Below are positions 3,932-37,800 of a stretch of DNA of 64,000 nt, piece after piece. A program made the position numbers and the translations under genes. The notes beneath the pieces were generated by a model that was not told where the DNA came from, made no database searches, and worked only from the letters and a program-made list of their open reading frames with translations. The number at the start of each line of letters is the position of its first letter. Positions within the stretch are counted from its first letter, which is position 1. Source of the DNA: an uncultured Eubacteriales bacterium (lineage in GTDB: Bacteria > Bacillota > Clostridia > Lachnospirales > Lachnospiraceae); the NCBI GenBank assembly GCA_900314845.1, contig OMWV01000004.1:124001-188000 (forward strand), in the 5' to 3' direction.

Positions 3932-5073
3932 CCAATGCCAGAATGGACGCCATGGCGGTAATGTTTCCCAATAATTATGACAACATGATACCTGAATTTA
4001 CGGAGATCCGGCAGATGGGTTCTCTGCCCTTTGCCAGCAGATACAGGATCGTCGACTTTTACCTCTCAAGCTTTGTCAACAGCGGCATTGACAATATCGC
4101 GGTGCTCACGAGGAAGAATTATCACTCTCTGCTCGACCATATCGGGTCCGGGCGTGAATGGGATCTTGTCAGGAAAAACGGCGGCATCTCCATCTTCCCT
4201 CCTTACGCCATCAAGAATATCGGCATATATGAGGGCTGGATAGAGGGTCTTGCCAGCATAAGGAATTTCCTGGAGACGCAGAAGGAAGAATTTGTCATCC
4301 TTTCCGACGCTCACATCGTCATGAACTTTGACTTTACAAAGCTCATTCAGTACCATGTCGATCACAAGGCAGACGTAACGATCGCCTACACCAGGGATCC
4401 CATGCCGGAAGAAGTGCTCAAGGAAGGGGATCCCAGCAAGGGCACCTTCTATGCTCTTGACCTGGACGATGAAGGACACGTGACGAATATAGACATCAAT
4501 CCCAGGCGGGAAGGCCTGCTGAATCAGTCCATGAACATTTATCTGATCAGAAGAAAATGGCTCATAGACATCGTGGACAAGACATTTCTCCGCGGCGGTG
4601 TCTACTTCGTCAGGGATATCCTGATCCCTGCCCTGTCTACACTGAATATCCAGGGCTATCTCTATGAAGGCTATTCCTCACGCATTACAGATATGAAGCA
4701 GTATTTCATTCAGAATATGAAGCTGCTGGAGGGAGACAATCTTTCCCGGCTTTTCTCGGGCGGTCCGATCTATACAAAGATCCGTGACGATAACCCTACA
4801 AGATACAAGGGCGATTCCAGGGCAAGCAATGTTCTGGTAGCCGACGGCTGCGTGATAGAAGGCGAAATAGAGAACAGTATCCTCTTCAGGGGCGTCAAGG
4901 TAGCTAAGGGCGCCAAAGTAAGGAACTGCATCCTCATGCAGGATACCCAGGTCGGAGAGGACGCGGATATAGAGTACGTGATCACAGATAAGAGGGTAAC
5001 CGTATCCGGCGGCACGAAGCTAAGCGGAAGCGAGTCGTTCCCCATCTACATCTCCAAGGGACATGTTGTCTGA
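3928..5073 (+). CDS. glgD: Glucose-1-phosphate adenylyltransferase, regulatory subunit
   Basis: This 381-residue GlgC paralogue keeps the fold ([20 protein letters not shown]-terminal hexapeptide beta-helix from about residue 290) but lacks the AGG-x-GxR nucleotide loop at its N-terminus, as is usual for GlgD. In Firmicutes GlgD pairs with GlgC and raises the activity of the complex; by itself it is nearly inactive. The ATG overlaps the glgC stop (ATGA), so the two subunits are translationally coupled. A strong terminator follows 16 bases downstream. Confidence 0.93.
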
Positions 5074-5089
5074 TTTGTGGTTTTATGCA

Positions 5090-5139
5090 GATGCAGGCAG
5101 GCCGGCCGGATGCCGGTTCTGTCTGCATCAAAATTTTTT
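5090..5139 (+). terminator. Strong intrinsic terminator after glgD
   Basis: GATGCAGGCAG-GCCGGC pairs with GCCGGTT-CTGTCTGCATC, a stem of about 17 bp with one small internal mismatch, followed by AAAATTTTTT. Confidence 0.9.
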
Positions 5140-5159
5140 ACAATAATTTACATTTTGGG

Positions 5160-5188
5160 TTGCCATTCCCGATAATATGTGTTATTCT
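5160..5188 (+). promoter_or_regulatory. Promoter of gltBD
   Basis: TTGCCA at 5160-5165, a 17-base spacer and TATTCT at 5183-5188. The -10 is preceded by TGT, an extended -10. The start of transcription is expected near 5195, about 110 bases before gltB. Confidence 0.65.
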
Positions 5189-5230
5189 CTAACGTAAGGA
5201 CAAAGAGGTCTTATCGGGCTAACTTTGTCC
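5168..5230 (+). promoter_or_regulatory. Two interleaved inverted repeats around the gltB promoter
   Basis: CCCGATAA (5168-5175) is matched by TTATCGGG (5211-5218). GGACAAAG (5198-5205) is matched by CTTTGTCC (5223-5230). The repeats interlock: the left arm of the second lies inside the first. The first repeat has its left arm in the promoter spacer and its right arm downstream of the start, 43 bp centre to centre, which suits a DNA operator with looping. The second would form a hairpin at the very 5' end of the message, followed by TGTTTTC, and could be an attenuator or stabiliser. Confidence 0.5.
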
Positions 5231-5307
5231 TGTTTTCGTATAGAAAGTAAAAAAGGAGTAAAGCCGGACACAGCTGCCTGATAAATATACTAAGATAGGA
5301 TAGTGAT

Positions 5308-22256: not shown

Positions 22257-23322
22257 ATCATTAGATCCGGTCCTTCAGGAGGATCTGGAGAATATTGTAA
22301 GAGGCGGCTTTGATTTCAGAAAACTGGATGGGCGCAGGGTCCTGGTGACAGGCGCGACGGGCCTTATCGGTTCACAGATCGTGAAAGCCATCCTCTGCGC
22401 GGACAGGCTGCTGGGAATATCCGTTCACGCAGTCGCTGCTGTCAGAAGCAGGCAGAAGGCTGAGAAAGTATTTGCAGGGATCATGGACAGACCACAGCTT
22501 GATATCCTGGTGGGAGATATCCGGGATGAAATGGACTGGGAGGGAGATGTGGATTACATCGTTCACTGCGCCAGCGCGACCAGTTCCCGCTATTTTGTGG
22601 AGAATCCGGTAGAGACGATAGCCACTGCCCTGGACGGAACAAGGGCTGTCCTGGAATTTGCCAGAAAGAAGAAGGTAGGAGGGATGGTCTACCTGTCCTC
22701 CCTTGAGGTCTATGGGGTTCCCCAGGCGGGCAGGGAGACCGTGACGGAAGAGGACTACGGTTATATAGATCCTCTCAAGGTCAGAAGCAGCTACTCGGAA
22801 GGGAAAAGGATGGCTGAGTGCATCTGCGCATCCTATGCCGGCGAGTACGGCGTGCCCGTGAAGATCGCCAGGCTTTCCCAGACATTCGGGGCCGGGGTGG
22901 AATATGACGACGGCAGAGTGTTTGCGGAATTTGCCAGATGCGCCATAGAAGGGAAAGACATCGTCCTTCATACATCCGGCTCTACCGTGAGGACCTATCT
23001 CTATACAGCTGACGCGGTGAGCGCTATCCTTACGATCCTTCTTCAGGGAGAGGAGGGCACCGCTTACAATGTGACCAATACAGCTGCCCGCATCTCTATC
23101 CGTGATATGGCATCTCTCGTCTGCCGGATATTCCCGCAGGCCGGGATCCATGTGACATTTGACTGCCCGGAGGATATCTCTTCCTTCGGCTACAACCCGG
23201 AGATGGTCATTGTGCTTGACGATACAAGGTTAAGGGCTCTGGGCTGGCAGGCCCGCGCTGATCTTGAGACCATGTTTTCCAGACTTGTAAGGTCCATGAC
23301 TCTGAGCAGAAAGGATCATTGA
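22246..23322 (+). CDS. NAD-dependent epimerase/dehydratase family protein
   Basis: Extended short-chain dehydrogenase of 358 residues: NAD loop GATGLIGSQIV near residue 37, catalytic YSEGKRM (Y-x3-K) near residue 179 preceded by YLSSLEVYG, and C-terminal sugar-nucleotide part. Substrate is unknown; the neighbours suggest a CDP- or nucleotide-linked sugar or alditol for a surface polymer. It overlaps the cytidylyltransferase gene by 11 bases. The stop at 23322 is followed by 257 bases of leader of the next operon. Confidence 0.85.
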   Translation: MTNESLDPVLQEDLENIVRGGFDFRKLDGRRVLVTGATGLIGSQIVKAILCADRLLGISVHAVAAVRSRQKAEKVFAGIMDRPQLDILVGDIRDEMDWEGDVDYIVHCASATSSRYFVENPVETIATALDGTRAVLEFARKKKVGGMVYLSSLEVYGVPQAGRETVTEEDYGYIDPLKVRSSYSEGKRMAECICASYAGEYGVPVKIARLSQTFGAGVEYDDGRVFAEFARCAIEGKDIVLHTSGSTVRTYLYTADAVSAILTILLQGEEGTAYNVTNTAARISIRDMASLVCRIFPQAGIHVTFDCPEDISSFGYNPEMVIVLDDTRLRALGWQARADLETMFSRLVRSMTLSRKDH

Positions 23323-23339
23323 CTTATCTGCTCATCTGG

Positions 23340-23380
23340 TATATGATAGGACATATATGGAAAAGGTTTACCAATGTAAA
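23340..23380. promoter_or_regulatory. Two small palindromes upstream of the nitrogenase-like operon
   Basis: TATATG-ATAGGA-CATATA (23340-23357) and TTTAC-CAAT-GTAAA (23367-23380) are perfect short inverted repeats just upstream of the presumed promoter. They could be operators; the arms are short, so chance is possible. Confidence 0.3.
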
Positions 23381-23424: not shown

Positions 23425-23430
23425 AGAATA

Positions 23431-23532
23431 GTATCAACTTTAACGGCAAGGTGATCCAAGCGGAAATTGTTGAATGGAGCCAGGAAGGCGGGATGAGTCT
23501 GTTCCCTGCTTTTTCTGCTGCGCGATAATTGC
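23431..23532 (+). promoter_or_regulatory. Structured leader, candidate riboswitch aptamer
   Basis: GGCAA (23445-23449) pairs with TTGCC (23529-23533), closing an 89-base domain. Inside it GCGGG (23479-23483 area) can pair with CCTGC before a TTTTT run near 23510, and CAGGAA with TTCCCTG as an alternative. The domain abuts the terminator/SD hairpin that follows. I compared it by eye with the known Moco, FMN, TPP, lysine, glycine, SAM, fluoride and cobalamin consensus cores and saw no match. Confidence 0.4.
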
Positions 23533-23579
23533 CCTCCTTTGTGCAATGGCGGATGACCCTGCACATTGGAGGTTTTTTT
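23533..23579 (+). terminator. Terminator hairpin that also buries the ribosome binding site
   Basis: CCTCC-tt-TGTGCA (23533-23545) pairs with TGCACA-tt-GGAGG (23560-23572), 11 bp with a 2-base internal loop, followed by seven T. The 3' arm GGAGG is the Shine-Dalgarno sequence of the gene starting at 23580. Folding therefore blocks both transcription and translation. Confidence 0.7.
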
Positions 23580-24341
23580 ATGCTCAGCATAGCGGTATAC
23601 GGCAAGGGAGGAATCGGCAAGTCTACGGTAACAGGAAATCTGGCGGCAGCATTTGCCTCTCTCGGCAAAAGGGTCGTGCAGATCGGCTGCGACCCCAAGG
23701 CAGATTCTACGATCAACCTGCTCGGCGGACAGCCGCCCATGCCTGTTATGAATTTTATGAGAGAATACGACCGGGAACCTGAGAGTCTGGATGAGATATC
23801 CAAGACCGGTTTCGGAGGAGTCGTGTGTATTGAGACCGGAGGCCCGACCCCGGGCCTGGGCTGCGCGGGGAGAGGCATTATTGCGACATTCAGCCTGCTT
23901 AAGGATCTGAAGATATTTGAGACGGTAAAGCCGGACGTCGTTCTCTACGATGTGCTGGGAGATGTAGTCTGCGGAGGCTTTGCCGCTCCGATCCGGGAAG
24001 GCTACGCGGACAAGGTCCTTATCGTTACATCCGGCGAGAAGATGGCACTGTATGCCGCCAATAATATCTACACGGCCGTGAAGAATTTTGAAGACAGAAG
24101 CTATGCCTCTGTTTACGGGATCGTTTTAAATCACAGGAACGTGGCGGATGAGACACAAAAGGTAGAGGAATTTGCCCGGGAGAGAGGCCTGAGCGTCGTG
24201 GGAGAGATCCCCAGGAGCCAGGATATCAATGACTGCGAAGAGCAGGGGCAGACCGTGATAGAGGGAAGGCCGGACTGCCAGGTCAGCAGAGCCTTCATGA
24301 AGCTGGCATCAGACCTTCTGGCAGCCGAGACAAAAGACTGA
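23580..24341 (+). CDS. NifH-like iron protein (nitrogenase-type reductase)
   Basis: A 253-residue homologue of the nitrogenase Fe protein, a homodimer that couples ATP hydrolysis to single-electron transfer. The P-loop GKGGIGKST is at residues 8-16, the CDPKADST switch region at 37-44, and the two cluster ligands per chain are Cys95 (GLGCAGRG) and Cys131 (DVVCGGFA). All features of an active Fe protein are kept. It is shorter than true NifH (about 290). The start at 23580 is set by GGAGG 7 bases before; an earlier in-frame ATG at 23529 lies in the leader hairpin. It is the first gene of a seven-gene operon and its electron acceptor should be the fused protein that follows 11 bases later. Confidence 0.9.
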
Positions 24342-24352: not shown

Positions 24353-26791
24353 ATGACGAGTGAGAAGAAGGGAAGAGCATACTTTATGACAGCGGCAGAG
24401 CTTGCCGCTCTGGGGAAGAAACCGGCTGCTTTTACATCTTCGGAGCATCTGATATACAGTTCTCCCGCGACTCTGGCCTTTAATTCACCGGGAGCCCAGG
24501 GCTACGGGGTAAAGAGAGCGGGGCTGTCCATCCCCGGTTCTGTGATGCTGCTTGTTTCACCCGGCTGCTGCGGCAGGAATACGACCATACTCAGCGAGAT
24601 GGGCGGCTACAGCGGAAGATTTTTTTATCTGCTCATGGACAGGACGGATATCGTGACGGGACGGCATCTGAAGAGAATAGAGGATGCGGCAGCAGCTGTC
24701 TATGACAGCCTCCAGGAAAAGCCCGGTGTGATCGTGATCTGTGTCACCTGTGTGGATGCCCTTTTGGGGACGGATATGGAGAGAGTCTGCAAAAAGGCTT
24801 CGGACAGGGTTGGAATACCGGTCCTTCCCTGCTATATGTATGCCCTGACAAGGGAGGGGAGGAAGCCTCCTATGACTTATGTGCGCCAGACCATCTATTC
24901 TCTTTTGACTCCCTCCCGGAGGGTCAGCACCACTGTCAATCTCCTGGGGAATTTCTGTCATCTGGAGGATGACTGTGAACTTTATGATATCCTTAAGGGC
25001 ATGGGTGTGCAGAGGATAAATGAGATCGGGCGGCTGAAGACATTTGACGAGTACAGGCAGATGTCGCAGGCTAATTTTAATATCGTCCTGAATCCGGATG
25101 CTCTGCCTGCGGCAGAGGATATGATGAAGGAACTTGGCATCCCCTATATCGAGCTGCACAGGCTTTACCGCATGGACAAGACAGAAAAGCAGTACAGGCT
25201 TTTTGCCTCGGCACTGGGGGCCCAGGCAGACGTCTCTGTCTGGAAGGAGAGGGCGGCAATGGCCCTTGCTGATCTGAAGGCGGAGTATGGGAATATCCGT
25301 TTTGCCGTCGGGGAGGGCTGCAACGCGGATGCGTTTGAGCTGTCCCTGGCACTGATAGAGTATGGATTTTCCGTGAGAGAGATATTTGCCGAGATAAAAG
25401 ACAATGATATGGCATATATCAGGAAGATCGCCAAACTGAGTCCGGACACGAAGATCTATTCCAATCTTGCCCCGACCATGATCTATTACGAAGAGGATGA
25501 AGAAGGCGTTGATATCAGCATAGGCAAGGATGCCGGCTATTATCATCCGGACAAGCCCCGTCTGGAGTGGAGCGATGACGTGCAGCCCTTTGGATTTACG
25601 GGGCTTGAGCACTTCTTCCGGGCCTGCTCCGGTGCTCTTTTGGCTGCCCGCGGCGGACAGAAGATGGAGCAGGCGGCAGCTGACCCTGATCGATGGCAGC
25701 CCTGCGTCAGCTCGCAGGCTATGCCGGATGTCAAGGGCCTTATGCTTAAGACATCCCCTTTTGCGCCGGATCAGTCAGGGGCAGCTGCTGTCTTCTGCCA
25801 GCTGGGCGGGTTGACAGTCATTGTCGATGCCGGGGGCTGTGCCGGCAATATATGCGGATTTGACGAGCCCAGATGGTTTTCTTCCAAAAGCGCCATTTTC
25901 AGCGCCGGCCTGCGTGATATGGACGCTATCCTGGGTAGGGATGACAAGCTGGTCGAGAAGATCTGTGATGTGAACGGCAGCGTAAGCTCTGATTTTACGG
26001 CATTGATCGGGACGCCTGTGCCGGCAGTGATCGGGACGGATTACAGGGCCCTGTGCCGGATGATAGAGAAAAAGACAGGCCGGCCTGCCCTTTTTGCCGA
26101 CTGCGACGGGACAGGAAATTATGACCAGGGCGAGTCGCAGGCTTTTCTGGCCCTCATGAAAGAATTCGCTTCTGAGAAGCCGGCAGAGCCGGGAGAGCAT
26201 TTTACAGGGGTCCTGGGGGCGACTCCCATGGATCTGGGCGATATAGACGCCCAGGCGGTTATCCGGCCCATGCTGGAGAAAAGAGGCATTAAAAAGGCTT
26301 ATATCTATACCATGGGCGCCGGGCTTAGCGAGATAGGGTCGGCAGGCAGGGCAGACCTTAATATCGTCATATCACCCGCCGCTCTCGGGGCGGCCAGGTA
26401 TCTGAAGGAAAAGTTTAACACTCCTTACGAAGAAGATTTTCCTCTTGAAGCCATACCGGATCTGGACCGAATCCTGGAAGAGTGCAGGGACAGATCTGCC
26501 GGCAGGATCCTTATCGTCGCCGAGCAGATGCTGGCGAATGCCCTGAGAAAGCGGATCCTGGTGGGCAGAGACCAGAATCCTCCTCTTGTCAGGGCGGCTT
26601 CCTGGTTCATGATGGACGATGAGTTTACAGAGGAAGGCGATCTGCACATAGACAGTGAATACGAATGGAAGAAGATTGCCGAGGAAGGCGGCTGGGATAT
26701 CATCATAGGCGATTCCCTTTTTGCGCGGGCGGCCGCTTATGAAGGAAAGTATCTTGACCTGCCCCATTTCGCGGTTTCCGGAAAGTTCTGA
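24353..26791 (+). CDS. Fused two-domain nitrogenase component 1-like protein
   Basis: An 812-residue single chain with two NifD/NifK-type halves. The first (about 45-430) has SPGCCGR with Cys72/73 where NifD has the P-cluster Cys after HGP, and VIVICVTCVDALLGTDM with Cys130/133. The second (about 455-812) has FCQLGG (Cys482), AGGCAGNIC (Cys496, Cys501), ILGRDDKLVEKI and PAVIGTDYRALCRMIEK, the last two being hallmarks of the D/K/E/N family. Subunits are normally separate genes; here they are fused. The usual FeMo-cofactor ligands of NifD (Cys275/His442) cannot be placed. With the NifH-like gene before it this should be a nitrogenase-like reductase or a NifEN-like scaffold. Substrate unknown. 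HypF follows after 12 bases. Confidence 0.85.
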   Translation: MTSEKKGRAYFMTAAELAALGKKPAAFTSSEHLIYSSPATLAFNSPGAQGYGVKRAGLSIPGSVMLLVSPGCCGRNTTILSEMGGYSGRFFYLLMDRTDIVTGRHLKRIEDAAAAVYDSLQEKPGVIVICVTCVDALLGTDMERVCKKASDRVGIPVLPCYMYALTREGRKPPMTYVRQTIYSLLTPSRRVSTTVNLLGNFCHLEDDCELYDILKGMGVQRINEIGRLKTFDEYRQMSQANFNIVLNPDALPAAEDMMKELGIPYIELHRLYRMDKTEKQYRLFASALGAQADVSVWKERAAMALADLKAEYGNIRFAVGEGCNADAFELSLALIEYGFSVREIFAEIKDNDMAYIRKIAKLSPDTKIYSNLAPTMIYYEEDEEGVDISIGKDAGYYHPDKPRLEWSDDVQPFGFTGLEHFFRACSGALLAARGGQKMEQAAADPDRWQPCVSSQAMPDVKGLMLKTSPFAPDQSGAAAVFCQLGGLTVIVDAGGCAGNICGFDEPRWFSSKSAIFSAGLRDMDAILGRDDKLVEKICDVNGSVSSDFTALIGTPVPAVIGTDYRALCRMIEKKTGRPALFADCDGTGNYDQGESQAFLALMKEFASEKPAEPGEHFTGVLGATPMDLGDIDAQAVIRPMLEKRGIKKAYIYTMGAGLSEIGSAGRADLNIVISPAALGAARYLKEKFNTPYEEDFPLEAIPDLDRILEECRDRSAGRILIVAEQMLANALRKRILVGRDQNPPLVRAASWFMMDDEFTEEGDLHIDSEYEWKKIAEEGGWDIIIGDSLFARAAAYEGKYLDLPHFAVSGKF

Positions 26792-26803: not shown

Positions 26804-29230
26804 ATGGAAGAGAAGAAGACGATATGTCTGAGAGTATATGGGATCGTCCAGGGAGTCGGATTCCGGCCGACAGTCAGCCGGCATGCCATCACCACCGGTG
26901 TGCGCGGAAGTGTCAGCAATATGGGCCCTTATGTGGAGATCATTGCCCAGGGAGAGGCGGATCAGGTGGAAAAATTTGCGGATCTTGTCATCCATGAGCC
27001 TCCGGTGCGGGCAGTGATTCTGAAATCGGACAGGGAAGAGCTGAGGGAAGACGATGAACGTTTTCGCGTCTATGACAGCTTTGATATCATAGAAAGTGAG
27101 AAAAAGACAGGGGAGATATTTGTCTCGCCGGATATAGCGACCTGTGATCAGTGCAGGCAGGAACTCTTTGATCCATCAAACAGAAGGTATCTGCACCCCT
27201 TTATAAACTGCACCTGCTGCGGACCCAGGCTGACTATACTAGATGGAATGCCCTATGACAGGGTAAGGACTTCTATGGCTGAATTCCCCATGTGCCCTGC
27301 CTGCCGCGATGAGTATACAGATCCGGACTCGAGGCGCTATGACGCCCAGCCTGTCTGCTGCAATGACTGCGGTCCTGAAGTATACCTGTTAGGCAGCGAT
27401 AAGAGGCGCGAGGAGGCTATCCGCCAGGCAAGACGGATGATAGCGGACGGGAAGATCATTGCGATAAAGGGAATCGGAGGATTTCACCTGTGCTGCGATG
27501 CCTCGAATGAGGAGGCTGTGGCCAGGCTCAGGGAGAGGAAGAAAAGGCCGGTCAAGCCCTTTGCCGTCATGATGAGAGATATAGATGCCGTCAGGCGGGA
27601 ATGCCAGCTGGATGATATCCAGGAAGAGATGCTGACCGGTCATCAGAAGCCTATCGTTCTTCTGAAAAGGAAGAAAGGAAACGGCAGGTCCGGTCTGTGC
27701 CAAAGCATATCCCCGGGCAACCCCAAGATAGGAGTTATGCTGCCTTATGCCCCCATCCAGATGCTGATATTCGATTATCCGGGGGATCAGACGTCTGTCT
27801 CAGACTGTCTTGTCATGACAAGCGGCAATATCTCGGGCGCCCCGATCTGCAGAGATGACCAGGATGCCGTCAGCCAGCTGGGCCATCTGTGTGACGCTGT
27901 GCTCTCGCACAACAGGCTGATCCGGATCCGGGCAGATGACTCCGTCATGGATTATTTCCGCGGCCGCCCTTATATGATCCGGCGGTCAAGAGGGTTTGCC
28001 CCTCTGCCCTTTATTGTGGGCGGCGGGCATTTTCAGGGAAGCGTGCTGGCAGTTGGGGGAGAACTGAAGAATACATTCTGCATTTCAAAGAATGATCTTT
28101 TTTACCCTTCGCCCTATATAGGGGACATGGAGGACGTGAGGACCGTCAAGGCCCATATGGAGTCTGTCCGCAGGATGGAAGAGCTTTTGGAAGCCAGTCC
28201 CCAGCTGATCGTGAGCGACATGCACCCAGCCTATCATACTGTGGAGGCGGCCAGAGAGCTGGCACAGAAGCGGGAACTTTTGCATCTGCAGGTGCAGCAC
28301 CATTATGCCCACATCCTGTCCTGCATGGCAGAGAATGAATATACGGATCCTGTCATAGGGATATCATTTGACGGGACCGGCTATGGCCAGGATGGAACGA
28401 TCTGGGGCGGTGAGATCATGACAGCCGATCTTGATTCCTATGTAAGACGGGGAAGCATCCAGCCCTTTATGCAGGCAGGCGGAGATCTGTCCGCCAAGGA
28501 AGGCTGGAGGATAGCGGTATCACTGATCCGGGACTGCCTGGCTGATGTACAGGAAGGCGGTCTGGGGCAGATCATGGACCGGGTGAGTGCTCTTAAGCTT
28601 TGCGATGAAAAGAGCGCAGCTGTCCTGCTCAGGCTGATAACACTTGGAGTCAACAGTGTAAAGTCTACGAGCGCCGGCCGCCTCTTTGACGGCGTGAGCG
28701 CCCTGCTTGGCATATGCAGGAAGTCGACATTCGAGGGAGACGCTTCCATGAGGCTGGAATTTGCAGCTGAGGCCTTTGAGGAGGAACAGAAAGATGAGGC
28801 GGCAGGTATCTGGCATGACATCATGTCACAAGGTCCGGATCTGGCAGCGGATACCGGCCTGGATGCAGCTATCTTAAAGCCTGCTGCCGAGGAAGGCCTT
28901 TACCGCTGCAGGAGTACAGACCTCTTTGCCTGGCTCATGAGGATGCATCTGGAGGGCACAGACCCGGGCAGGCTGAGCTATATCTTCCACGCGGCCCTGG
29001 CTGCCCAGGCAGCTGAGGTCTGCTGCCAGGTCCGTGAGGAGAGCGGGATCAACACCGCTGCCCTTTCCGGAGGCGTTTTCCAGAATCAGCTCTTTCTGCG
29101 CTTTTGCGCAGAATATCTGGAGATGAAGGGTTTCAGAGTCCTGACTCATTCCCTTCTGCCCCCCAATGATGCCGGTATCTGCCTGGGCCAGGCGGTCTAT
29201 GGTGCCAGATATCTGCAAAAAACGAGATAA
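26804..29230 (+). CDS. hypF: Carbamoyltransferase HypF
   Basis: HypF turns carbamoyl phosphate into a carbamoyl group on the C-terminal Cys of HypE, the source of the cyanide ligands of [NiFe]-hydrogenase. All domains are present: acylphosphatase (1-95, VQGVGFRPTV), two zinc fingers (Cys114/117/136/139 and Cys164/167/186/189), a YrdC-like ATP domain (about 205-385), and a Kae1-like domain with HHYAHILSCMAE and SFDGTGYGQDGTIWGGE. The 808-residue length is slightly over the usual 750-780. It lies between the nitrogenase-like pair and hypCDE, unlike ordinary hydrogenase loci where HypA/B or hydrogenase genes are near. Confidence 0.95.
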   Translation: MEEKKTICLRVYGIVQGVGFRPTVSRHAITTGVRGSVSNMGPYVEIIAQGEADQVEKFADLVIHEPPVRAVILKSDREELREDDERFRVYDSFDIIESEKKTGEIFVSPDIATCDQCRQELFDPSNRRYLHPFINCTCCGPRLTILDGMPYDRVRTSMAEFPMCPACRDEYTDPDSRRYDAQPVCCNDCGPEVYLLGSDKRREEAIRQARRMIADGKIIAIKGIGGFHLCCDASNEEAVARLRERKKRPVKPFAVMMRDIDAVRRECQLDDIQEEMLTGHQKPIVLLKRKKGNGRSGLCQSISPGNPKIGVMLPYAPIQMLIFDYPGDQTSVSDCLVMTSGNISGAPICRDDQDAVSQLGHLCDAVLSHNRLIRIRADDSVMDYFRGRPYMIRRSRGFAPLPFIVGGGHFQGSVLAVGGELKNTFCISKNDLFYPSPYIGDMEDVRTVKAHMESVRRMEELLEASPQLIVSDMHPAYHTVEAARELAQKRELLHLQVQHHYAHILSCMAENEYTDPVIGISFDGTGYGQDGTIWGGEIMTADLDSYVRRGSIQPFMQAGGDLSAKEGWRIAVSLIRDCLADVQEGGLGQIMDRVSALKLCDEKSAAVLLRLITLGVNSVKSTSAGRLFDGVSALLGICRKSTFEGDASMRLEFAAEAFEEEQKDEAAGIWHDIMSQGPDLAADTGLDAAILKPAAEEGLYRCRSTDLFAWLMRMHLEGTDPGRLSYIFHAALAAQAAEVCCQVREESGINTAALSGGVFQNQLFLRFCAEYLEMKGFRVLTHSLLPPNDAGICLGQAVYGARYLQKTR

Positions 29231-29314: not shown

Positions 29315-29524
29315 ATGTGCGTAGGATTACCGGCAAGAGTTATGAAAATTGACGGAGGAAGGGCAGTTGTCGATGCCTCCGGCGCTCAGAAGGAGATATC
29401 TTCCGAGCTTCTCTCAGACCTGGAACCCGGAGATTATGTTATGGTACATGCAGGGATCGCCATAGCAAAGATCGGAAGCGACGATATGAGCGAGTCCGAC
29501 CAGATCCTTGACAGCCTGCTGTAA
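29315..29524 (+). CDS. hypC: HypC/HybG-type chaperone
   Basis: A 69-residue protein beginning MCVGLPARVMKI. Cys2 (after Met removal, the N-terminal residue) is the residue that holds iron in the HypC-HypD complex. The VMVHAGIAIAKI strand is typical of the family. An excellent CGGGAGG site precedes it, and a perfect TATAAT (29294-29299) lies in the 84-base gap after hypF, but no -35 was found for it. Confidence 0.95.
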   Translation: MCVGLPARVMKIDGGRAVVDASGAQKEISSELLSDLEPGDYVMVHAGIAIAKIGSDDMSESDQILDSLL

Positions 29525-29535: not shown

Positions 29536-30579
29536 ATGGGTAATGCAAAAGAAAAAGCTTTGGAGATCATAAGAGCCTATGACGGCCCCCATATCCGGAT
29601 GATGGAGGTTTGCGGGACACATACGCATGAACTGTTCAGGCTGGGCGTGCGCAAGATCCTGCCTCCCCAGGTGGAGCTCATATCAGGTCCCGGCTGTCCG
29701 GTCTGCGTGACCGGTCCGGGTTTTATCGATGAGGCCGTATGGCTGGCTCTTGAGAAGGGAGCAGCGATCTGTACATTCGGGGATCTTGTCCGGGTCCCCG
29801 GCTCAGAGGACAGTCTGGCATCGGCCAGGGCAAAGGGAGCAAAGGTAAAGGTCGTATATTCACCGCCGGATGCGGCAGACTACGCGGCAGACCATCCGGA
29901 CGAGGAGGTCGTATTCCTGTCTGTAGGATTTGAGACAACGACACCTTCATCCTGTGTAGCCTTAAAGAGCGCCCAGGAGAGTGGACTTAAGAACTTTTCC
30001 CTTCTTGTTTCCAACAAGACGATGCCCCAGGCCTATAAGATGCTTAAGGGCAGCGCGGATATCTTCCTTTATCCCGGCCATGTGAACGCTATCGCCGGCA
30101 ATGAAGTCTGTAAGAGCCTGGTCAGCCAGGGAGTCAGCGGGGTTGTGACAGGATTTACCGCCGCGGAGATCCTCACGGCTATTGCCATCTCACTGAAAAA
30201 ATACGGAGAGGGAAAGCCCTTTTTCGTAAATGCTTATCCCCGTGTCGTGAAGGATGAGGGCAATCCGCAGGCTCAGGCGATCGTCGACAAGTATATGGAG
30301 GCCTGTGACAGTGAGTGGAGAGGTCTGGGACTCATTCCCGGATCAGGCATGAAGCTCAGGGATGAGTATGCAGCATTCGATGCCCGCAAAAAGTTCCAGG
30401 TTCCGCCTATGAAGGGCAGAACCAATCCTGCCTGCCGCTGCGGGGATGTCCTTCAGGGCAGATGCAGGCCCGTCGACTGTCCGCTCTTTGGAAAGGCCTG
30501 CACGCCGCTAAAGCCTGTCGGAGCCTGCATGGTATCCGGGGAGGGCGCATGTTCGGCATATTATCAGTACAATGAATAA
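29536..30579 (+). CDS. hypD: HypD, Fe(CN)2CO assembly protein
   Basis: HypD with HypC is the scaffold on which iron receives CN and CO ligands. Visible are MEVCGTHTHEL near residue 25, SGPGCPVCVTGPGF near residue 55, SVGFETTTPSS in the middle, and the cysteine-rich 4Fe-4S end (CRCGDVLQGRC, then CPLFGKAC and further Cys). Length 347 is typical. It is 11 bases after hypC and 18 before hypE. Confidence 0.96.
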   Translation: MGNAKEKALEIIRAYDGPHIRMMEVCGTHTHELFRLGVRKILPPQVELISGPGCPVCVTGPGFIDEAVWLALEKGAAICTFGDLVRVPGSEDSLASARAKGAKVKVVYSPPDAADYAADHPDEEVVFLSVGFETTTPSSCVALKSAQESGLKNFSLLVSNKTMPQAYKMLKGSADIFLYPGHVNAIAGNEVCKSLVSQGVSGVVTGFTAAEILTAIAISLKKYGEGKPFFVNAYPRVVKDEGNPQAQAIVDKYMEACDSEWRGLGLIPGSGMKLRDEYAAFDARKKFQVPPMKGRTNPACRCGDVLQGRCRPVDCPLFGKACTPLKPVGACMVSGEGACSAYYQYNE

Positions 30580-30597
30580 CAGATGAGGAGACATGAT

Positions 30598-31602
30598 ATG
30601 AACGACAGAGTAACGCTTGCCCACGGGGCGGGCGGAAGACAGACGGCAGAACTGATAGATAAGGTTTTTAAGGCACATTTTTCAAATCCCCAGTTTACAT
30701 CGGATGACGCGGCCGTGCTCCAGATGCAGTCGGGAAAACTTGCATTTACGACGGACGGCTTTATCGTCTCCCCTCCCTTTTTCCCGGGCGGGAATATCGG
30801 CAAGCTCAGCATATGCGGTACAGTGAACGATCTGTCCTGCATGGGGGCAAAGCCTCTTTACCTTTCCTGCGCCTTTGTCATTGAGGAGGGATTCGAGATG
30901 GCAAAGCTGGAGGAGATAGCAGCGGCCATGGAAGAGACGGCTGCCAAGGCAGGCGTGAGGATCGTCGCGGGCGATACGAAGGTCGCAGGAAAAGGCCAGG
31001 TCGACCAGCTTTTTATCACGACGACCGGCATCGGTCAGATCCAGGAGGGAATGGACACATCAGGCGCCTATGCAAAGCCGGGCGATAAGGTGATCGTCAG
31101 CGGAGATATCGGCCGCCATGGCTGCACGATCCTGCTTGCCAGAGATGAGTTTGGCATTGACGCGGATGTGACGAGCGACTGCGCTCCCCTCTGGGCCAAT
31201 GTGAAGGCCATGATGGATGTTACAAATGATATCCATGTCATCCGTGACGCTACAAGAGGCGGGGTCGGCACGGTGCTCTACGAGATAGCAGAGCAGAGCC
31301 AGGTCGGCATCCGTTTAGACACCCAGTCTATCCCCGTTCAGGACGGCGTAAAGGGCGTCTGCGGCATGCTGGGACTTGAACCCTTATATCTTGCCTGCGA
31401 GGGAAGGCTTGTCATATTTGCTCTCGCTGATAAGGCTGACGCCCTGGTAGAGGCTCTCCGAGGCTGTGAGAATTCCGAGAATGCGGCCATCATAGGAGAG
31501 GTTACCTCTGATCTTCCCGGCCATGTCATCCTGCGCACGGAGATCGGAGCCCAGACTATGCTCTCAAGGCCTACGGGAGAACTTTTGCCCAGGATCTGTT
31601 AG
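30598..31602 (+). CDS. hypE: HypE, thiocyanate-forming dehydratase
   Basis: HypE dehydrates the carbamoyl group on its last residue to a cyanide donor, using ATP. The product (334 aa from this start) has HGAGGRQT at the beginning, the PurM-like ATP fold with TDGFIVSP and AGDTKV, and ends in PRIC, the required C-terminal cysteine. ATG 30598 is preferred since GAGGAGA lies 8 bases upstream; ATG 30583 overlaps that site. HypCDEF are thus complete in residues, but no HypA, HypB, maturation protease or hydrogenase subunit is seen. Confidence 0.96.
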   Translation: MNDRVTLAHGAGGRQTAELIDKVFKAHFSNPQFTSDDAAVLQMQSGKLAFTTDGFIVSPPFFPGGNIGKLSICGTVNDLSCMGAKPLYLSCAFVIEEGFEMAKLEEIAAAMEETAAKAGVRIVAGDTKVAGKGQVDQLFITTTGIGQIQEGMDTSGAYAKPGDKVIVSGDIGRHGCTILLARDEFGIDADVTSDCAPLWANVKAMMDVTNDIHVIRDATRGGVGTVLYEIAEQSQVGIRLDTQSIPVQDGVKGVCGMLGLEPLYLACEGRLVIFALADKADALVEALRGCENSENAAIIGEVTSDLPGHVILRTEIGAQTMLSRPTGELLPRIC

Positions 31603-31643: not shown

Positions 31644-32711
31644 ATGAAAGATCTGGACGAGAAGACGATCCGGCTGATCGACAGACTGGAGGCAGAGCAC
31701 TGCCTGACTCTGGAAGAATACAGGTATCTGGTAGAGCATGAAAGCCAGGAGGCAAAGGCCTATATCGCGCCTAAGGCAAGAAGGATCGCAGATCAGGTCT
31801 ACGGGCATGACATCTATGTGAGAGGCCTGATAGAATTCAGCAATTACTGCAAAAATAACTGTTATTACTGCGGCATAAGGGCTGACAACAGCAGGTGTGA
31901 CCGCTACAGGCTGACAGAGGACGTTATATTAAAGTGCTGTGATGACGGATATGATTATGGCTACCGCACTTTCGTCCTCCAGAGCGGGGAGGATCCCTAT
32001 TACACGGACGATATGCTCTGCCGGATCATCTCAAAGATCCGGGAGCGCCACCCGGACTGCGCCGTCACCCTCTCCATAGGGGAGAAGTCTTACGAAAGCT
32101 ATAAGCGGTATTTTGAGGCCGGCGCCCAGAGGTATCTCCTGCGCCATGAGACAGCGGATAAAGATCATTATGGCAAGCTCCATCCTGCCCGGATGTCCTT
32201 TGACCACAGGATGAACTGTGTCAGGCAGCTGCGGGAGATCGGATATGATGTCGGGATCGGCATGATGATCGGCGCTCCCATGCAGACATCCCTCAATCTT
32301 GCCGAGGATCTGAAGTTTATCGAGCAGTTTCAGCCCGAAATGTGCGGCATGGGTCCTTTTATCCCTCATGATGATACGCCATTCAGGGATCAGCCCGCCG
32401 GCACTCTGGACATGACTCTCTATCTTCTGTCCATCGTCAGGCTGATCTGCCCCCATGTTCTTCTGCCGGCGACGACAGCCCTGGGCACGATCCATCCGCT
32501 GGGGCGGGAGATGGGAGTAGAGGCTGGGGCGAATGTCGTGATGCCCAATCTGTCCCCCACGGAAGTGAGACAGAAGTATCTCCTCTACAACAATAAGATC
32601 TGTACGGGCGAGGAATCCGCCCAGTGCAGGGGCTGCCTGCAGGCCAGAATGTCAGGCATAGGCTATCAGGTAGTCGTATCCAGAGGAGACGTAAAAAGAC
32701 CGGTGGCATAA
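31644..32711 (+). CDS. hydE: Radical SAM enzyme HydE
   Basis: HydE is one of three maturases of [FeFe]-hydrogenase and acts on the Fe(CO)2(CN)cysteine unit on the way to the 2Fe subcluster. Radical SAM cysteines are 69, 73 and 76 (CKNNCYYC). A second set, Cys320, 328 and 331, has the same spacing as in Thermotoga HydE. VLQSGEDPYY, RYLLRHET, GIGMMIGAP, PFIPHDDTP and PATTALGTI are family blocks, so this is HydE rather than PylB or BioB. HydF and HydG are not in the window; HydE genes can be unlinked, so whether it serves FeFe hydrogenase or the nitrogenase-like/Hyp system is open. It is 41 bases after hypE and ends the operon. Confidence 0.93.
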   Translation: MKDLDEKTIRLIDRLEAEHCLTLEEYRYLVEHESQEAKAYIAPKARRIADQVYGHDIYVRGLIEFSNYCKNNCYYCGIRADNSRCDRYRLTEDVILKCCDDGYDYGYRTFVLQSGEDPYYTDDMLCRIISKIRERHPDCAVTLSIGEKSYESYKRYFEAGAQRYLLRHETADKDHYGKLHPARMSFDHRMNCVRQLREIGYDVGIGMMIGAPMQTSLNLAEDLKFIEQFQPEMCGMGPFIPHDDTPFRDQPAGTLDMTLYLLSIVRLICPHVLLPATTALGTIHPLGREMGVEAGANVVMPNLSPTEVRQKYLLYNNKICTGEESAQCRGCLQARMSGIGYQVVVSRGDVKRPVA

Positions 32712-32814: not shown

Positions 32815-33249
32815 TCACTCTGCTTTGTCCTCATCAAACATCTCTTCCAGTGTGTGCCAGCCAAGTACGGCACATTTTACTCTGGCCGGCATGTGGGAAA
32901 CATCTTCAAGAACAGACGCCTCCTCCAGCTGCCTCTTCTCTTCATCTGTGATCTCGCCCTTTATCATGCGGAGGAAAATGTCCTTGAGCTTCAGGGCTTC
33001 TTCCTTTGTCCTGCCTATTACCAGGTCCAGCATCATGTCAGCGGAAGCCTGGGAGATGGCACAGCCGTCTCCTACATATGCTCCGTCAACGATCTTGTCG
33101 GTGTCATCTACCTTAAGGCTGAGCACGATGTCGTCGCCGCAGCTGGGGTTGACCCCCTCCAGGACGAAGTTGGCCCCCTCCATCTTGTGCTTGTGGAAAG
33201 GATGGATATTGTGCTCTGTCAGGATCTCATTATAAAATGTACTTGCCAT
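32815..33249 (-). CDS. sufU: SufU, Fe-S assembly sulfur-transfer/scaffold protein
   Basis: A 144-residue NifU/IscU-type protein of the SufU group. Cysteines lie in NPSCGDD, GCAISQAS and KCAVLGWHTL, and the insertion between them (about residues 75-110) is typical of SufU rather than IscU. In Firmicutes SufU receives sulfur from SufS, with a zinc ion on these ligands. Last gene of the suf operon, 22 bases after sufS. Confidence 0.94.
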   Translation of the reverse strand: MASTFYNEILTEHNIHPFHKHKMEGANFVLEGVNPSCGDDIVLSLKVDDTDKIVDGAYVGDGCAISQASADMMLDLVIGRTKEEALKLKDIFLRMIKGEITDEEKRQLEEASVLEDVSHMPARVKCAVLGWHTLEEMFDEDKAE

Positions 33250-33271
33250 TGTGATCTGCCTCCCTTACAGC

Positions 33272-34507
33272 TCAGTCTTTAAAGCCCATCTCGCCGCGAA
33301 GCTTTGAGACAGCATCTACAAGTCTGTCAATCTCATCCTCGGTGTTGTAAAATGAAAGACTGGCCCTTGAGGTAGAGAATACATCAAAATGTCTCATGAG
33401 AGGCTGAGCACAGTGATGGCCAGCCCTGATATCCACATTCTGAGAATCCAGAATGTAGGCAACATCGTGGGGATGCACGCCGTCTATCGTAAATGTCAGG
33501 ATACCGTGGTGATCCTCGGGTTTATCGGAACCGAGGATGTGCAGGTGGGGAACAGCTTTCAGCTTATCCATGGCGATCTGAGTGAGAGCCTTCTCTCTGG
33601 CTTCGATCGTGTCAAATCCTATGTTCTGAATGTAACGAATCGCAGCCTCGAGACCGACGGCGCCGCCTGCGTTTACCGTACCTCCCTCAAATTTGTGAGG
33701 GATCTCGGAAAATTTAGCGTCAAAACGGGAAACAGAATCTATCATCTCTCCGCCGAAGAGGAAAGGAGGCATCTTCTCGAGAAGGTCTTTTTTGCCATAG
33801 AGAACACCGATACCCATGGGAGAGTACATCTTGTGGCCTGAAAATGCCATAAAATCTACGTCCAGATCCGTCACGTTCACGGGGATGTGGGGAACGCTCT
33901 GGGCTCCGTCACAGACGAAGATCGCTCCGTGTTCATGGGCGATGGCGGCAAATGTCTTCACGTCGTTGACTGTTCCCAGGACATTGGACAGCTCGGTCAT
34001 GGCGACGATCTTTGTCTTGTCTGTGATAGCTGCCTCGAAGGCCTCCCTGCTGATCTTGCCCTGCTTATCGCAGTCTACATATTTGAGGACCGCGCCCGTG
34101 GCTTTTGCTGCCTGCTGCCAGGGGATCATGTTGCTGTGATGCTCCATGATGCTGATGAGGATCTCATCGCCCTCGTGCAGGAAATTCCTGGCATAGCTGT
34201 AGGCAACAAGGTTCAGGCTCTCTGTCGTGTTCCTTGTAAATATGATCTGATCACTGTCGCCTGCGCCAATGAAATCAGCGACGGTCTTTCTGGCACCCTC
34301 GTAGGCCTCTGTCGCAGCAACGCTGAGCTTGTAGAGCCCCCTTAAAGGGTTTGCGTTCAGAGATCTGTAATATTCTTCAACTGCCTTGATCACGCATTCC
34401 GGCTTCTGAGTCGTAGCGGCATTGTCAAGGTATGCTGTCTCATCATTTAAAATGGGAAAAGCACTGCGGATCTTCGCGTCATCCGCCTTATTATAAACTC
34501 CGCTCAT
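33272..34507 (-). CDS. sufS: SufS cysteine desulfurase
   Basis: Pyridoxal-phosphate group II cysteine desulfurase of 411 residues. The PLP lysine is in FSGHKMYSPMG, the catalytic cysteine in RAGHHCAQPLM, and the N-terminal YLDNAATTQKP block is normal. It supplies persulfide to SufU. The first base of its ATG is shared with the last base of the sufD stop, so it is translationally coupled. Confidence 0.96.
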   Translation of the reverse strand: MSGVYNKADDAKIRSAFPILNDETAYLDNAATTQKPECVIKAVEEYYRSLNANPLRGLYKLSVAATEAYEGARKTVADFIGAGDSDQIIFTRNTTESLNLVAYSYARNFLHEGDEILISIMEHHSNMIPWQQAAKATGAVLKYVDCDKQGKISREAFEAAITDKTKIVAMTELSNVLGTVNDVKTFAAIAHEHGAIFVCDGAQSVPHIPVNVTDLDVDFMAFSGHKMYSPMGIGVLYGKKDLLEKMPPFLFGGEMIDSVSRFDAKFSEIPHKFEGGTVNAGGAVGLEAAIRYIQNIGFDTIEAREKALTQIAMDKLKAVPHLHILGSDKPEDHHGILTFTIDGVHPHDVAYILDSQNVDIRAGHHCAQPLMRHFDVFSTSRASLSFYNTEDEIDRLVDAVSKLRGEMGFKD

Positions 34508-35595
34508 TATTCCGCCTCCGTATTGTAATGTCTGTCCTGATAAGAACTGATCTCATTTCTTGTCTGCTCGTCAGGGATGAGAGCGCTAACCGCGTCTATC
34601 CTGGCCCTGGCCATCATCTCATAAACATGCTGCTCGTCCAGGCCTCTTGACTGAAGATAGAAGAGGAGGGACTCGTCCAGCCTTCCGATCGTAGCGCCGT
34701 GATTGCCGACGACATCTTCCTCATCGCAGAGGATAAGAGGAATGGTCTGGTTGACAACGTCGTCATCTATCAGGAGAACATCCTCCTTCTCATTGCCGAC
34801 GGAGCCCGCGCAGCCTCTGTGAAGATCTATGGTGCCCCTGAAAAGCTTGTGGGCGGTATTCCTGAGAACGCCGGACGCGTTGATCAGGCTCTCTGTCTTC
34901 TTGGCGGGATGGTCTGCCACATAGTTGATATCAAGCTTTCCATTGCCGCCGACAACATAGCCAAGGTCAGCTCTGAAATAGCTCTGTTTTCCCTTAAGGT
35001 CTGCCCTTGTTCCAAGATAGGTCTGTCCGTTGCCCAGAACGATCTGGATCACCTCGATGCGGCCGTTGTCATCGCACTCACCGCCTATATCGTTAAGGAA
35101 GGTAAAATGCTCGCCCAGGGTCTGTACCTGGATGATATGAAGGACGGCTCCCTGAGCAACGTGATATCTTGTCTGAACAGCCGCAAGGCTGTCCACTGCC
35201 GCATCCTCGTCGTCTGTGCCAAACTTCATGATAACGGTCATCTCACTGCCGGCAGCAGCGGTCAGGTCAACATTGTTTATATCGCGGCAGCCCGGCTGGT
35301 AATTAAAATCAAGCCTGAGGGGCTCTGTGATCTTTTTGCCCTCTCCCGCGGTATAGCTGCAGGAGGAGACGCCGGCGCTTACGCTGAGAGCGCTCATCTC
35401 GGGGCCCATTCCTGTCTTGGCATCCGCGTATCGGGAAGCGTCAAGAGTCTCGGCGTTTATGCCGCCGGGAACCTGAGCTTTCATGTCTCCTGTCTTTTCT
35501 ACTTTAACGCCTTCTATATGCGCCTCATTCATCCTGAGCCAGTTCCAGGTGATGGAGGGCAGGCGGTTTACTTTCATATTAACTGCACTTTCCAT
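34507..35595 (-). CDS. sufD: SufD, scaffold subunit
   Basis: A 362-residue SufB/D-family beta-helix protein, with C-terminal GATIGRLDESLLFYLQSRGLDEQHV and DAVSALIPDEQ. It forms the SufBC2D scaffold. ATG 35595 follows AGGAGG by 7 bases; MKVNRLP further on is less likely as a start. It lies 11 bases after sufB in the same transcript. Confidence 0.94.
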   Translation of the reverse strand: MESAVNMKVNRLPSITWNWLRMNEAHIEGVKVEKTGDMKAQVPGGINAETLDASRYADAKTGMGPEMSALSVSAGVSSCSYTAGEGKKITEPLRLDFNYQPGCRDINNVDLTAAAGSEMTVIMKFGTDDEDAAVDSLAAVQTRYHVAQGAVLHIIQVQTLGEHFTFLNDIGGECDDNGRIEVIQIVLGNGQTYLGTRADLKGKQSYFRADLGYVVGGNGKLDINYVADHPAKKTESLINASGVLRNTAHKLFRGTIDLHRGCAGSVGNEKEDVLLIDDDVVNQTIPLILCDEEDVVGNHGATIGRLDESLLFYLQSRGLDEQHVYEMMARARIDAVSALIPDEQTRNEISSYQDRHYNTEAE

Positions 35596-35606
35596 TCTTA
35601 TTCCTC

Positions 35607-37013
35607 CTAGCCTATGCTGCCCTTCATCTCAAGTCTGATCAGATTGTTCATCTCTACAGCGTACTCAAGCGGAAGTTCCTTGGAAACATTGTCCGCGAAA
35701 CCGCTGACGATGAGAGCTCTTGCCTCATCCTCGGAGAGGCCTCTTGACATGAGATAGAAGACTGTATCATCGCTGATCCTTCCGATCTTGGCCTCATGGC
35801 CGATATCTGCCTTGGATGTGCGGATATCCATAGCCGGGATGGTATCGGACCTGGAAATATCATCGACCATCAGGGACTGACAGGAAACAGCAGACTTGCT
35901 GCCGACGGCATTCTTATTGACTACTACGGAGCTTCTGAAAGTGCTGATGCCGCCATCCTTTGAAATGGATCTTGTATTCACATAGGATGAGGTATCGGGG
36001 GCTGCGTGAACGACCTTGCAGCCGGTATCAAGGTTCTGTCCCTTGCCCGCGAACGTAACGCCCGTGAACTCGGAACGTGCTCCCTTGCCTGCCAGGACAC
36101 TCATTGGATAGAGGTAGGAAACGTGGGATCCAAAGGAACCGGATATCCACTCCACCTTGCCGCCTTCCTCTACTCTGGCACGCTTTGTGTTGAGGTTGTA
36201 CATGTTCTTGGACCAGTTCTCTATGGTAGAGTAGCGCAGGGTAGCGTTCTTGCCCACATAGAGCTCAACACAGCCGGCATGGAGGTTGGCTATATTGTAC
36301 TTGGGCGCTGAGCATCCCTCTATGAAATGCAGGTATGCGCCTTCGTCGACTATGATCAGCGTGTGCTCGAACTGACCGGCGCCGGGAGCATTCAGTCTGA
36401 AGTAAGACTGAAGAGGGATCTCAACAGAGACACCGGGCGGAACATAGACGAAGGATCCGCCTGACCAGACAGCCCCGTGGAGGGCAGCGAACTTGTGATC
36501 CTGGGGAGGAACAAGCTTCATGAAATGCTTCTTGATCATCTCGGAGTAAGGCCCGCGGATGGCATCCTCAATTCCCTCGTAGACAACGCCCTGGTCTGCA
36601 ACTTCCTTCTTAACATTATGGTAAACGAGCTCGGAATCATACTGGGCGCCTACGCCGGCAAGAGATTCACGCTCTGCCTGGGGGATACCCAGACGCTCGA
36701 ATGTATCCTTTATATCATCGGGGACATCTTTCCACTGTCCCTTCATGGTCGTGTTGGGACGGACATATGTAACGATGTGATCCATATCAAGTCCGTCTAT
36801 CGGCGGTCCCCATTCGGGGATGGCTATCTTGTTGTATATCTCAAGAGATTTCAGTCTGAAGTCATGCATCCACTGAGGATCATTCTTCTCCTTGGAGATC
36901 TGCTCGACAATGTCAGGCGTAAGACCCTCGTCGACCTTGTATGCATCCTTCTCCTCATACCTGAAGTCATACATACTGCGGTCTATATCATTTACCTGCG
37001 TCTTTTCTTTCAT
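35607..37013 (-). CDS. sufB: SufB, Fe-S scaffold subunit
   Basis: The 468-residue SufB carries the conserved SufB core (GGSFVYVPPGVSVEIPLQSY, SAPKYNIANLHAG) and the C-terminal GRISDDTVFYLMSRGLSEDEA. Cys in GCSAPKY is among those implicated in nascent clusters in other SufB. The start at 37013 (MKEKTQVND) is chosen because AAGGAG lies 9 bases before it; an upstream in-frame codon at 37076 lies in the sufC tail. Operon order C-B-D-S-U is the usual Firmicute form. Confidence 0.96.
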   Translation of the reverse strand: MKEKTQVNDIDRSMYDFRYEEKDAYKVDEGLTPDIVEQISKEKNDPQWMHDFRLKSLEIYNKIAIPEWGPPIDGLDMDHIVTYVRPNTTMKGQWKDVPDDIKDTFERLGIPQAERESLAGVGAQYDSELVYHNVKKEVADQGVVYEGIEDAIRGPYSEMIKKHFMKLVPPQDHKFAALHGAVWSGGSFVYVPPGVSVEIPLQSYFRLNAPGAGQFEHTLIIVDEGAYLHFIEGCSAPKYNIANLHAGCVELYVGKNATLRYSTIENWSKNMYNLNTKRARVEEGGKVEWISGSFGSHVSYLYPMSVLAGKGARSEFTGVTFAGKGQNLDTGCKVVHAAPDTSSYVNTRSISKDGGISTFRSSVVVNKNAVGSKSAVSCQSLMVDDISRSDTIPAMDIRTSKADIGHEAKIGRISDDTVFYLMSRGLSEDEARALIVSGFADNVSKELPLEYAVEMNNLIRLEMKGSIG

Positions 37014-37044
37014 CTTCTGTAACTCCTTATGTATGATCCGGCTT

Positions 37045-37800
37045 TTACTTGTCAGCGGCAGCAAGGAACTGCTCAAAACCGTTTTCGTTTATCTCATCTA
37101 CGAGCCTGCTGTCGCCTTCCTTTATCACGCGGCCGTCAGCGAGGATGTGAGTTACATCTACGTCGAGGGCTTCAAGGATACGGGTGCTGTGGGTGATGAT
37201 CAGAAGAGCTCCGCCTACGTTCTTCTTGTAAGCTTCCACTCCTTCGGAAACTGTTCTTGCCGCATCAACGTCAAGACCGGAATCTGTCTCATCGAGTATG
37301 GCGAGCTTGGGCTCGAGCATAAGGAGCTGAAGGATCTCGGCTTTCTTTTTCTCACCGCCGGAAAATCCTACGTTCAGGTCTCTTGTCGCATAGGAAGGAT
37401 CCATATGGAGTATGTTCATGGCATTCTCCAGCTTGTCCTTGAAATCAAAATAGCGGACTCTCTTTCCTGTTTTCTGCTCAAGGGCAGTCCTTATGAAATT
37501 GGAGAGGGTGATACCGGGAACCTCCACAGGAATCTGGAAAGAAAGGAACATGCCGGCCTTGGCGATCTTGTCTGTGGGCTGGCCTGTTATATCATTTCCG
37601 TCGAAAATGACGCTGCCGTCTGTGATCTCGTATCTGGGGCTGCCCATTACGGCATAGCCGAGCGTGGACTTGCCGGCTCCGTTGGGACCCATGAGAACGT
37701 GCGTCTCATTGGCGCCGACGGCCAGATTCACACCGTGCAGTATCTCTTTGTCTTCAACGTTGACCTTAAGATTTTTTACTTCAAGTATATTCTGTGACAT
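37045..37800 (-). CDS. sufC: SufC, ABC-type ATPase
   Basis: A 251-residue soluble ABC ATPase: Walker A MGPNGAGKSTLG, signature GFSGGEKKKAEILQ, Walker B LAILDETDSGLDVD. It drives conformational change of the SufBD scaffold. First gene of the operon, GGAGG before the start, promoter and double operator upstream. Confidence 0.96.
   Translation of the reverse strand: MSQNILEVKNLKVNVEDKEILHGVNLAVGANETHVLMGPNGAGKSTLGYAVMGSPRYEITDGSVIFDGNDITGQPTDKIAKAGMFLSFQIPVEVPGITLSNFIRTALEQKTGKRVRYFDFKDKLENAMNILHMDPSYATRDLNVGFSGGEKKKAEILQLLMLEPKLAILDETDSGLDVDAARTVSEGVEAYKKNVGGALLIITHSTRILEALDVDVTHILADGRVIKEGDSRLVDEINENGFEQFLAAADK

Follow-up and report, generated by a model that had tools for sequence, protein, structure and literature searches.

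A hairpin family in the leaders of H-cluster maturation genes and of a nitrogenase-like/hyp operon is probably a cis-regulatory RNA

Attenuators of the ANTAR, RAT and PyrR types are bound by protein and use small hairpins, sometimes paired, to control terminators. Terminator-type riboswitches, as a general class, combine a 5′ leader, a compact conserved domain and a terminator with mutually exclusive pairing and feedback logic. In enzyme maturation, the usual task of HypFCDE is to provide Fe(CN)2CO for NiFe hydrogenases. The Moco/Tuco riboswitch candidate (PMC2408646) is an example of RNA control over genes that assemble a metal cofactor, in Clostridia and elsewhere among bacteria, and the nifV motif, a candidate leader RNA with four Geobacter examples upstream of homocitrate synthase, carries its Shine-Dalgarno sequence inside an intricate structure (PMC11109978). 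A 2022 survey recorded acetogenic Clostridium species that have HydE, HydF and HypCDEF without a recognisable HydG, and mostly without HypA or HypB, a pattern left unexplained there (PMC9431212).

The element described here is a conserved 46-nt hairpin at positions 23431–23476 (+ strand) of the window, a stretch of 64,000 nt from a Lachnospiraceae-like genome (G000) that is 97.7% complete. It resembles terminator-type riboswitches in its leader position, compact conserved domain, terminator, inferred mutually exclusive pairing and feedback logic, but it has no Rfam match and a putative ligand only, and in hydG leaders and in Coriobacteria it abuts the Shine-Dalgarno sequence rather than a terminator. 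Control of metal-cofactor genes is shared with Moco/Tuco, although the regulon is hydrogenase maturation, not molybdenum, and the Rfam library gave no match. A Shine-Dalgarno sequence within structure and a nitrogenase-cofactor gene recall the nifV motif, but the element is a simple hairpin where nifV is described as intricate. With ANTAR, RAT and PyrR systems it shares the small terminator-controlling hairpin, sometimes paired, but the operon showed no gene for a regulator of these kinds; to our knowledge its sequence and loop features fit none of the three. Searches against Rfam 15 found no relevant family for the window or its relatives at gathering or relaxed E-values, the only gathering-level matches being tRNAs in one related locus (L076), in agreement with the initial annotation, which had recognised no known aptamer core. 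Neither the element nor a nitrogenase-like substitute for HydG was described in the full-text literature searched, a body that leaves most preprints and many subscription papers outside. This RNA family is widespread across Clostridia and relatives and, it appears, undescribed.

Downstream of the element lie seven genes, all on the + strand. A nifH-like reductase gene of the NifH/BchL/CfbC superfamily (23580–24341), below every equivalog cut-off, is followed by a nifD/K-like component-1 gene (24353–26791) in which PF00148 matches in two stretches, so that two domains are fused; in L286–L289 the same component is encoded by two genes. Next are hypF (26804–29230; TIGR00143, 733 bits), hypC (29315–29524; TIGR00074, 65 bits), hypD (29536–30579) and hypE (30583–31602), the last two assigned by profile search, and hydE, encoding the [FeFe] hydrogenase H-cluster radical SAM maturase (31644–32711; TIGR03956, 568 bits against a cut-off of 255). 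Nitrogen fixation by a true nitrogenase was considered for the operon and rejected, the nifH-like protein scoring 299.5 bits with TIGR01287 against an equivalog cut-off of 394.35.

Immediately before the nifH-like gene is an intrinsic terminator (23533–23579, + strand) with arms at 23533–23545 and 23560–23572. Its stem pairs CCTCC-tt-TGTGCA (from 23533) with TGCACA-tt-GGAGG (to 23572), and seven T (23573–23579) lead directly into the ATG at 23580. The 50-nt stretch folds at −20.2 kcal/mol compared with −11.0 ± 2.8 for shuffled sequences (z −3.35; 2 of 200 shuffles equally stable), and the window thus has both the stable G+C-rich hairpin and the U run of an intrinsic terminator. GGAGG (23568–23572) is part of the terminator 3′ arm and likely also the Shine-Dalgarno sequence of the nifH-like gene. 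This arrangement, already noted in the initial annotation, recurs in orthologues: in 17–18 leaders, the window included and L096 doubtful, the terminator ends 3–10 nt from the start codon and its 3′ arm contains the Shine-Dalgarno sequence, while other leaders have a separate one downstream. A strong intrinsic terminator separates element and gene in 53 of 58 leaders examined; the five without it all come from Coriobacteria-type genomes, in which the element lies ~45 nt 5′ of the start codon. The best promoter-like candidate near the leader, TTGACT-17 nt-TATGAT at 23319–23347 (+ strand), lies 5′ of it and matches the consensus at 10 of 12 positions in a scan that does not imply function.

Comparison of 80 orthologous loci of the nifH-like gene revealed a shared leader sequence, AACUCUGACGGCAAGG-n4-6-CCGAGCGGGAAUAGUU, at varying distances from the gene. 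The element is present 5′ of the nifH-like gene in ~62 of the 80 loci, and none was found directly upstream in the other ~18. In a first alignment of 41 elements chosen by core sequence only, so that the outer helix P1 had no part in the choice, changes on both sides were found in 5/5 P1 pairs, and covariation over the whole structure was 0.222 compared with 0.128 ± 0.016 for shuffled alignments and at most 0.104 for slid partners. A descriptor search then yielded a second group with other helix sequences and the same unpaired core; with both groups combined, 10 of 11 pairs changed on both sides, and covariation was 0.333 against 0.148 ± 0.015 (shuffled) and at most 0.102 (slid partners). Pair counts for this group and for a third one, described below, overstate covariation because members were collected in part by a descriptor that scores pairing; the P1 test, and the anchor test and cross-search given below, are free of this bias. 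The initial annotation had proposed a covariance search, in which conserved, covarying stems would speak for a regulatory leader, and these counts do support it.

The resulting family is a 28–46-nt irregular hairpin. Its short, variable P1 is followed by an internal loop of the UGA/GAA type and four covarying pairs; then come a tandem RA/GA loop, two further covarying pairs and finally a loop. Mapped onto the window (+ strand), P1 is formed by 23435–23438 and 23469–23472, with a U-U mismatch at 23439–23468; the inner pairs are 23444–23463, 23446–23461, 23447–23460, 23450–23457 and 23451–23456. Conserved non-Watson-Crick positions at 23441–23443/23464–23466 and 23448–23449/23458–23459 could form two tandem G-A-type internal loops. 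A conserved, structured, aptamer-like domain is thereby combined with covariation, as in RNAs of the riboswitch type. The window copy scored 44.5 bits (E 1.5e-8) with model R1 and 39.8 bits with model R2, both trained on sets that included the window sequence, and is the sole strong copy in its genome. The linker to the terminator (23477–23532, + strand) is unconserved among orthologues. Elsewhere, tandem copies occupy single leaders at seven nifH-like loci belonging to different sequence groups (L052, L081, L096, L100, L158, L181 and L191). A larger fold had originally been drawn here, an 89-base domain closed by GGCAA/TTGCC. It did not hold up: region 23428–23536 folds no better than its shuffles (z −0.01), GGCAA belongs to the conserved core of the smaller hairpin, and its supposed TTGCC partner had no conserved match in orthologous leaders inspected by eye.

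We examined which genes follow the element. Among 392 genomes of the order, five confident matches were found, all 5′ of nifH-like genes. With a wider model, 391 genomes of the class and 398 of the phylum gave strong matches 5′ of nifH-like and hypC/D genes, while weaker matches recurred 5′ of hydE and hydG-like genes; these scans scored only the best candidates per genome, so a missing match is weak evidence. Direct inspection of hydG and hydE loci revealed the third group, CCUGAC-nnn-RAAG-n4-8-CUGA-nnn-GRAAGG, located 5′ of hydG, hydE and hydF and of a TM1266-family gene preceding hydG or hydF. The hydG copies often lie ~40–50 nt 5′ of the start and merge into the Shine-Dalgarno sequence. 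When hydG leaders were picked by their unpaired anchors alone, all five inner pairs tested were present in 15 of 89; among 1780 shuffled sequences 3 had them, and on the reverse strand none of 89 did. Given this choice, the pairing is not a selection artefact. Model R3, built from 31 elements found before hydG, hydE, hydF and TM1266 genes only, was run over 1.18 Mb of nifH-like loci and gave 48 matches, 46 of them just before nifH-like or TM1266-nifH genes and two elsewhere (best 38.7 bits, E 9e-8). No element was found before hydA in six hydA loci.

The element is thus located in the 5′ leaders of functionally linked genes: the nifH-like/hyp operon, hydG, hydE, hydF and TM1266. Because it precedes hydG, hydE, hydF and TM1266-family genes alike, the sensed process appears to be maturation of the [FeFe]-hydrogenase H-cluster, and on gene context the ligand logic would be that of H-cluster assembly, not nitrogen fixation. 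Of the initial interpretation, the conserved covarying leader RNA, the attenuator and the metal-cofactor context stand, while the nitrogenase-like system is not the element's proper home, given its other positions. In the best explanation of these data, the family ranges over Bacillota and some Actinomycetota as a cis-regulatory RNA for H-cluster maturation genes. It would mark the genes of H-cluster assembly in Clostridia and related bacteria with one shared RNA signature, and would thereby suggest what a nitrogenase-like/Hyp operon often found in gut and rumen bacteria may do.

Competition between element and terminator predicts that the 3′ strand of an element pairs more stably with the 5′ terminator arm of the same locus than with arms swapped in from other loci. 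This was observed: across 46 loci the energies were −10.0 kcal/mol for own and −8.3 for swapped arms, a difference reached in 0 of 10000 permutations, and for 28 loci chosen more strictly, all with a linker, they were −10.5 and −8.7 kcal/mol (p 1e-4). Neither the linker (p 0.23) nor the element 5′ strand (p 0.15) gave an own-versus-swapped signal in those 28 loci, and when antiterminators were sought as simple duplexes along the entire upstream and linker region, own against shuffled, no signal emerged on average (median z −0.14). Coupling is clearest in L057, L074, L092, L093 and L101, where GGAAGAGC pairs with GCUCUUUC. Because the 3′ strand co-varies with the terminator 5′ arm across loci, a stabilised element is expected to favour termination, making this an OFF switch. 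In the window the antiterminator (23466–23479 with 23534–23547) forms 11 of 14 pairs and is weak, and the switch direction for this copy is therefore taken from its relatives. Computed energies are −56.7 kcal/mol for the antiterminator, −67.1 for element plus terminator and −69.6 for the free fold, whose minimum-energy structure does not contain the element. As an upstream dyad, the element could in principle be an inverted-repeat protein site in DNA, or a chance dyad, instead of an RNA structure. We regard this as highly improbable: helix positions switch identity with pairing kept, G-U pairs occur, the anchors are strand-specific (0/89 on the reverse strand), and the 3′ strand co-varies with a terminator arm.

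We next compared gene content in 14 genomes that carry both element and operon (G000, G001, G002, G004, G030, G302, G358, G418, G207, G700, G550, G717, G612 and G572). An [FeFe] hydrogenase was present in all 14, and HydG exceeded its curated cut-off in none, compared with 128 of 196 genomes of the class (Fisher p 9e-7, a figure that ignores shared ancestry among the 14 genomes, which come from five genera). G502, a relative from the genus of five carriers, has HydG; the genomes with an element match do not include it. The large subunit of NiFe hydrogenase (PF00374, PF00346) was detected in 0 of 9 carriers tested, while positive controls worked, and NiFe hydrogenase maturation was accordingly rejected as the role of the operon despite its HypFCDE. 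In one genome (L286; G572, contig C5, 75001–95000) the order is hydA - element - nifH - nifD - nifK - hypF - element - hypD - hypE - TM1266 - nifD2 - nifK2 - hydF - hydE, with two nitrogenase-like NifDK sets and two element copies in one cluster; L287 and L289 repeat most of this order. HydE, HydF and HypFCDE are thus common to these clusters and to the HydE-HydF-HydG and HypCDEF maturation systems, but carriers have HydG below cut-off (14 tested) and no NiFe hydrogenase (nine tested), with NifHDK-like proteins instead.

Most simply, and most likely, the operon is a HydG-replacing route to the H-cluster in which NifHDK-like and Hyp proteins would supply the Fe-CO-CN unit, a proposal made from gene content. 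The operon is present in two Clostridium species, C. thailandense and C. luticellarii (L077, L088). A HydG-independent route fits the HydG-less acetogenic clostridia (PMC9431212), for which the operon would offer a direct, testable explanation. Alternatively, the operon could serve a different reaction of nitrogenase-like type, for instance the reduction of methylthio-alkanes, and share the RNA only because both systems use Fe-S or Fe-CN cofactors. Sulfur compounds are substrates of group IV nitrogenase relatives (PMC10418091, PMC11423573) and the clusters hold two NifDK-like sets, but hydE, hydF, TM1266 and hydA occur in the same clusters, HypFCDE have no NiFe hydrogenase as client in the nine carriers tested, and HydG is missing from all carriers tested, so that we consider this alternative unlikely.

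From the computed family, gene associations, terminator, cross-locus coupling of the 3′ strand to the terminator, and absence of HydG and NiFe hydrogenase, we infer an effector, a switch direction and an enzymology as follows. NifHDK-like proteins and HypFCDE would provide HydE and HydF with their Fe-CO-CN building block. The effector, an H-cluster intermediate or related ligand or else a protein sensor, would report that sufficient H-cluster precursor is present; by stabilising the hairpin it would sequester the 3′ strand, letting the terminator form and switching the operon off. Without effector, the 3′ strand would pair with the terminator 5′ arm and the operon would be read. Overall, these elements probably form an unlisted cis-regulatory RNA family that controls H-cluster maturation genes through an attenuator OFF switch, the operon here most likely replacing HydG.

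The effector itself may be a small molecule or a protein. A metal cofactor or an iron-cofactor intermediate, as suggested initially, is a possible ligand. Genomes with and without HydG share the later H-cluster pathway, so that CO, cyanide, iron or a late precursor would make sense as ligands. The hairpin could accordingly be a putative aptamer for an H-cluster intermediate or related ligand (the Fe-CO-CN synthon, CO, cyanide or Fe(II)) acting in feedback repression, a reading that we hold tentatively and that falls somewhat short of probable. Its unpaired core is conserved more than its helices, its outputs are an attenuator and a Shine-Dalgarno sequence, tandem copies occur (L052, L081, L096, L100, L181, L191), and its regulon covers a single biosynthetic process whether or not a genome contains HydG; the core is, however, very small for an organometallic aptamer, and free intermediates may stay inside the maturases. 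Rather doubtful is the more specific proposal that the hairpin is a riboswitch responding to an organometallic Fe-CO-CN intermediate of H-cluster assembly, or to free CO or cyanide, and that in HydG-less bacteria it controls a HydG-independent H-cluster pathway of nitrogenase-like and Hyp proteins. We know of no riboswitch for an organometallic precursor; the RNA would be one if it does bind an Fe-CO-CN species.

A hairpin bound by protein is a lesser though serious possibility than a small-molecule aptamer, and the first candidate is the 80-aa TM1266 family, named in NCBIfam as iron-only hydrogenase system putative regulator (TIGR03959, 109 bits). It is as concrete a candidate as the ligands named above. 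Of the loci compared, 41 have a TM1266-like gene close to the operon; in several hydG loci such a gene immediately follows the element, and in Megasphaera it precedes nifH. The family is weakly related to a nickel-responsive regulator and has a solved structure annotated without function (2nzc), and tandem hairpins would suit an oligomer. Against this, no TM1266 gene was found in the window or in 89 kb sampled from the same genome; we know of no RNA binding by this fold, nor is TM1266 known to us as a member of the ANTAR, RAT or PyrR types.

Several further observations concern individual loci. L079, L106 and L110 have almost the same terminator (GGCUCCUUUUGCGUCCCGUGCGCAUAAAGGAGUCUUUUUU-AUG); the element match is weak in L079 and L110 (23.2 bits), and none lies within the 154 nt of L106. 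The genome of the window has another nifH-like gene, with two nifD/K-like genes behind it, away from the hyp operon (L285; G000, contig C37, 1–16000, genes at 3806–7030), and these genes are neighbours of the first operon in related genomes. Facing the operon in the window (32815–37076, minus strand) are ORFs whose translations, read by eye, resemble a sufU-sufS-sufD-sufB iron-sulfur assembly cluster. In two Megasphaera loci (L091, L097) a TM1266-family gene lies directly 5′ of the nifH-like gene, and that of L091 is itself preceded by an element (21.9 bits).
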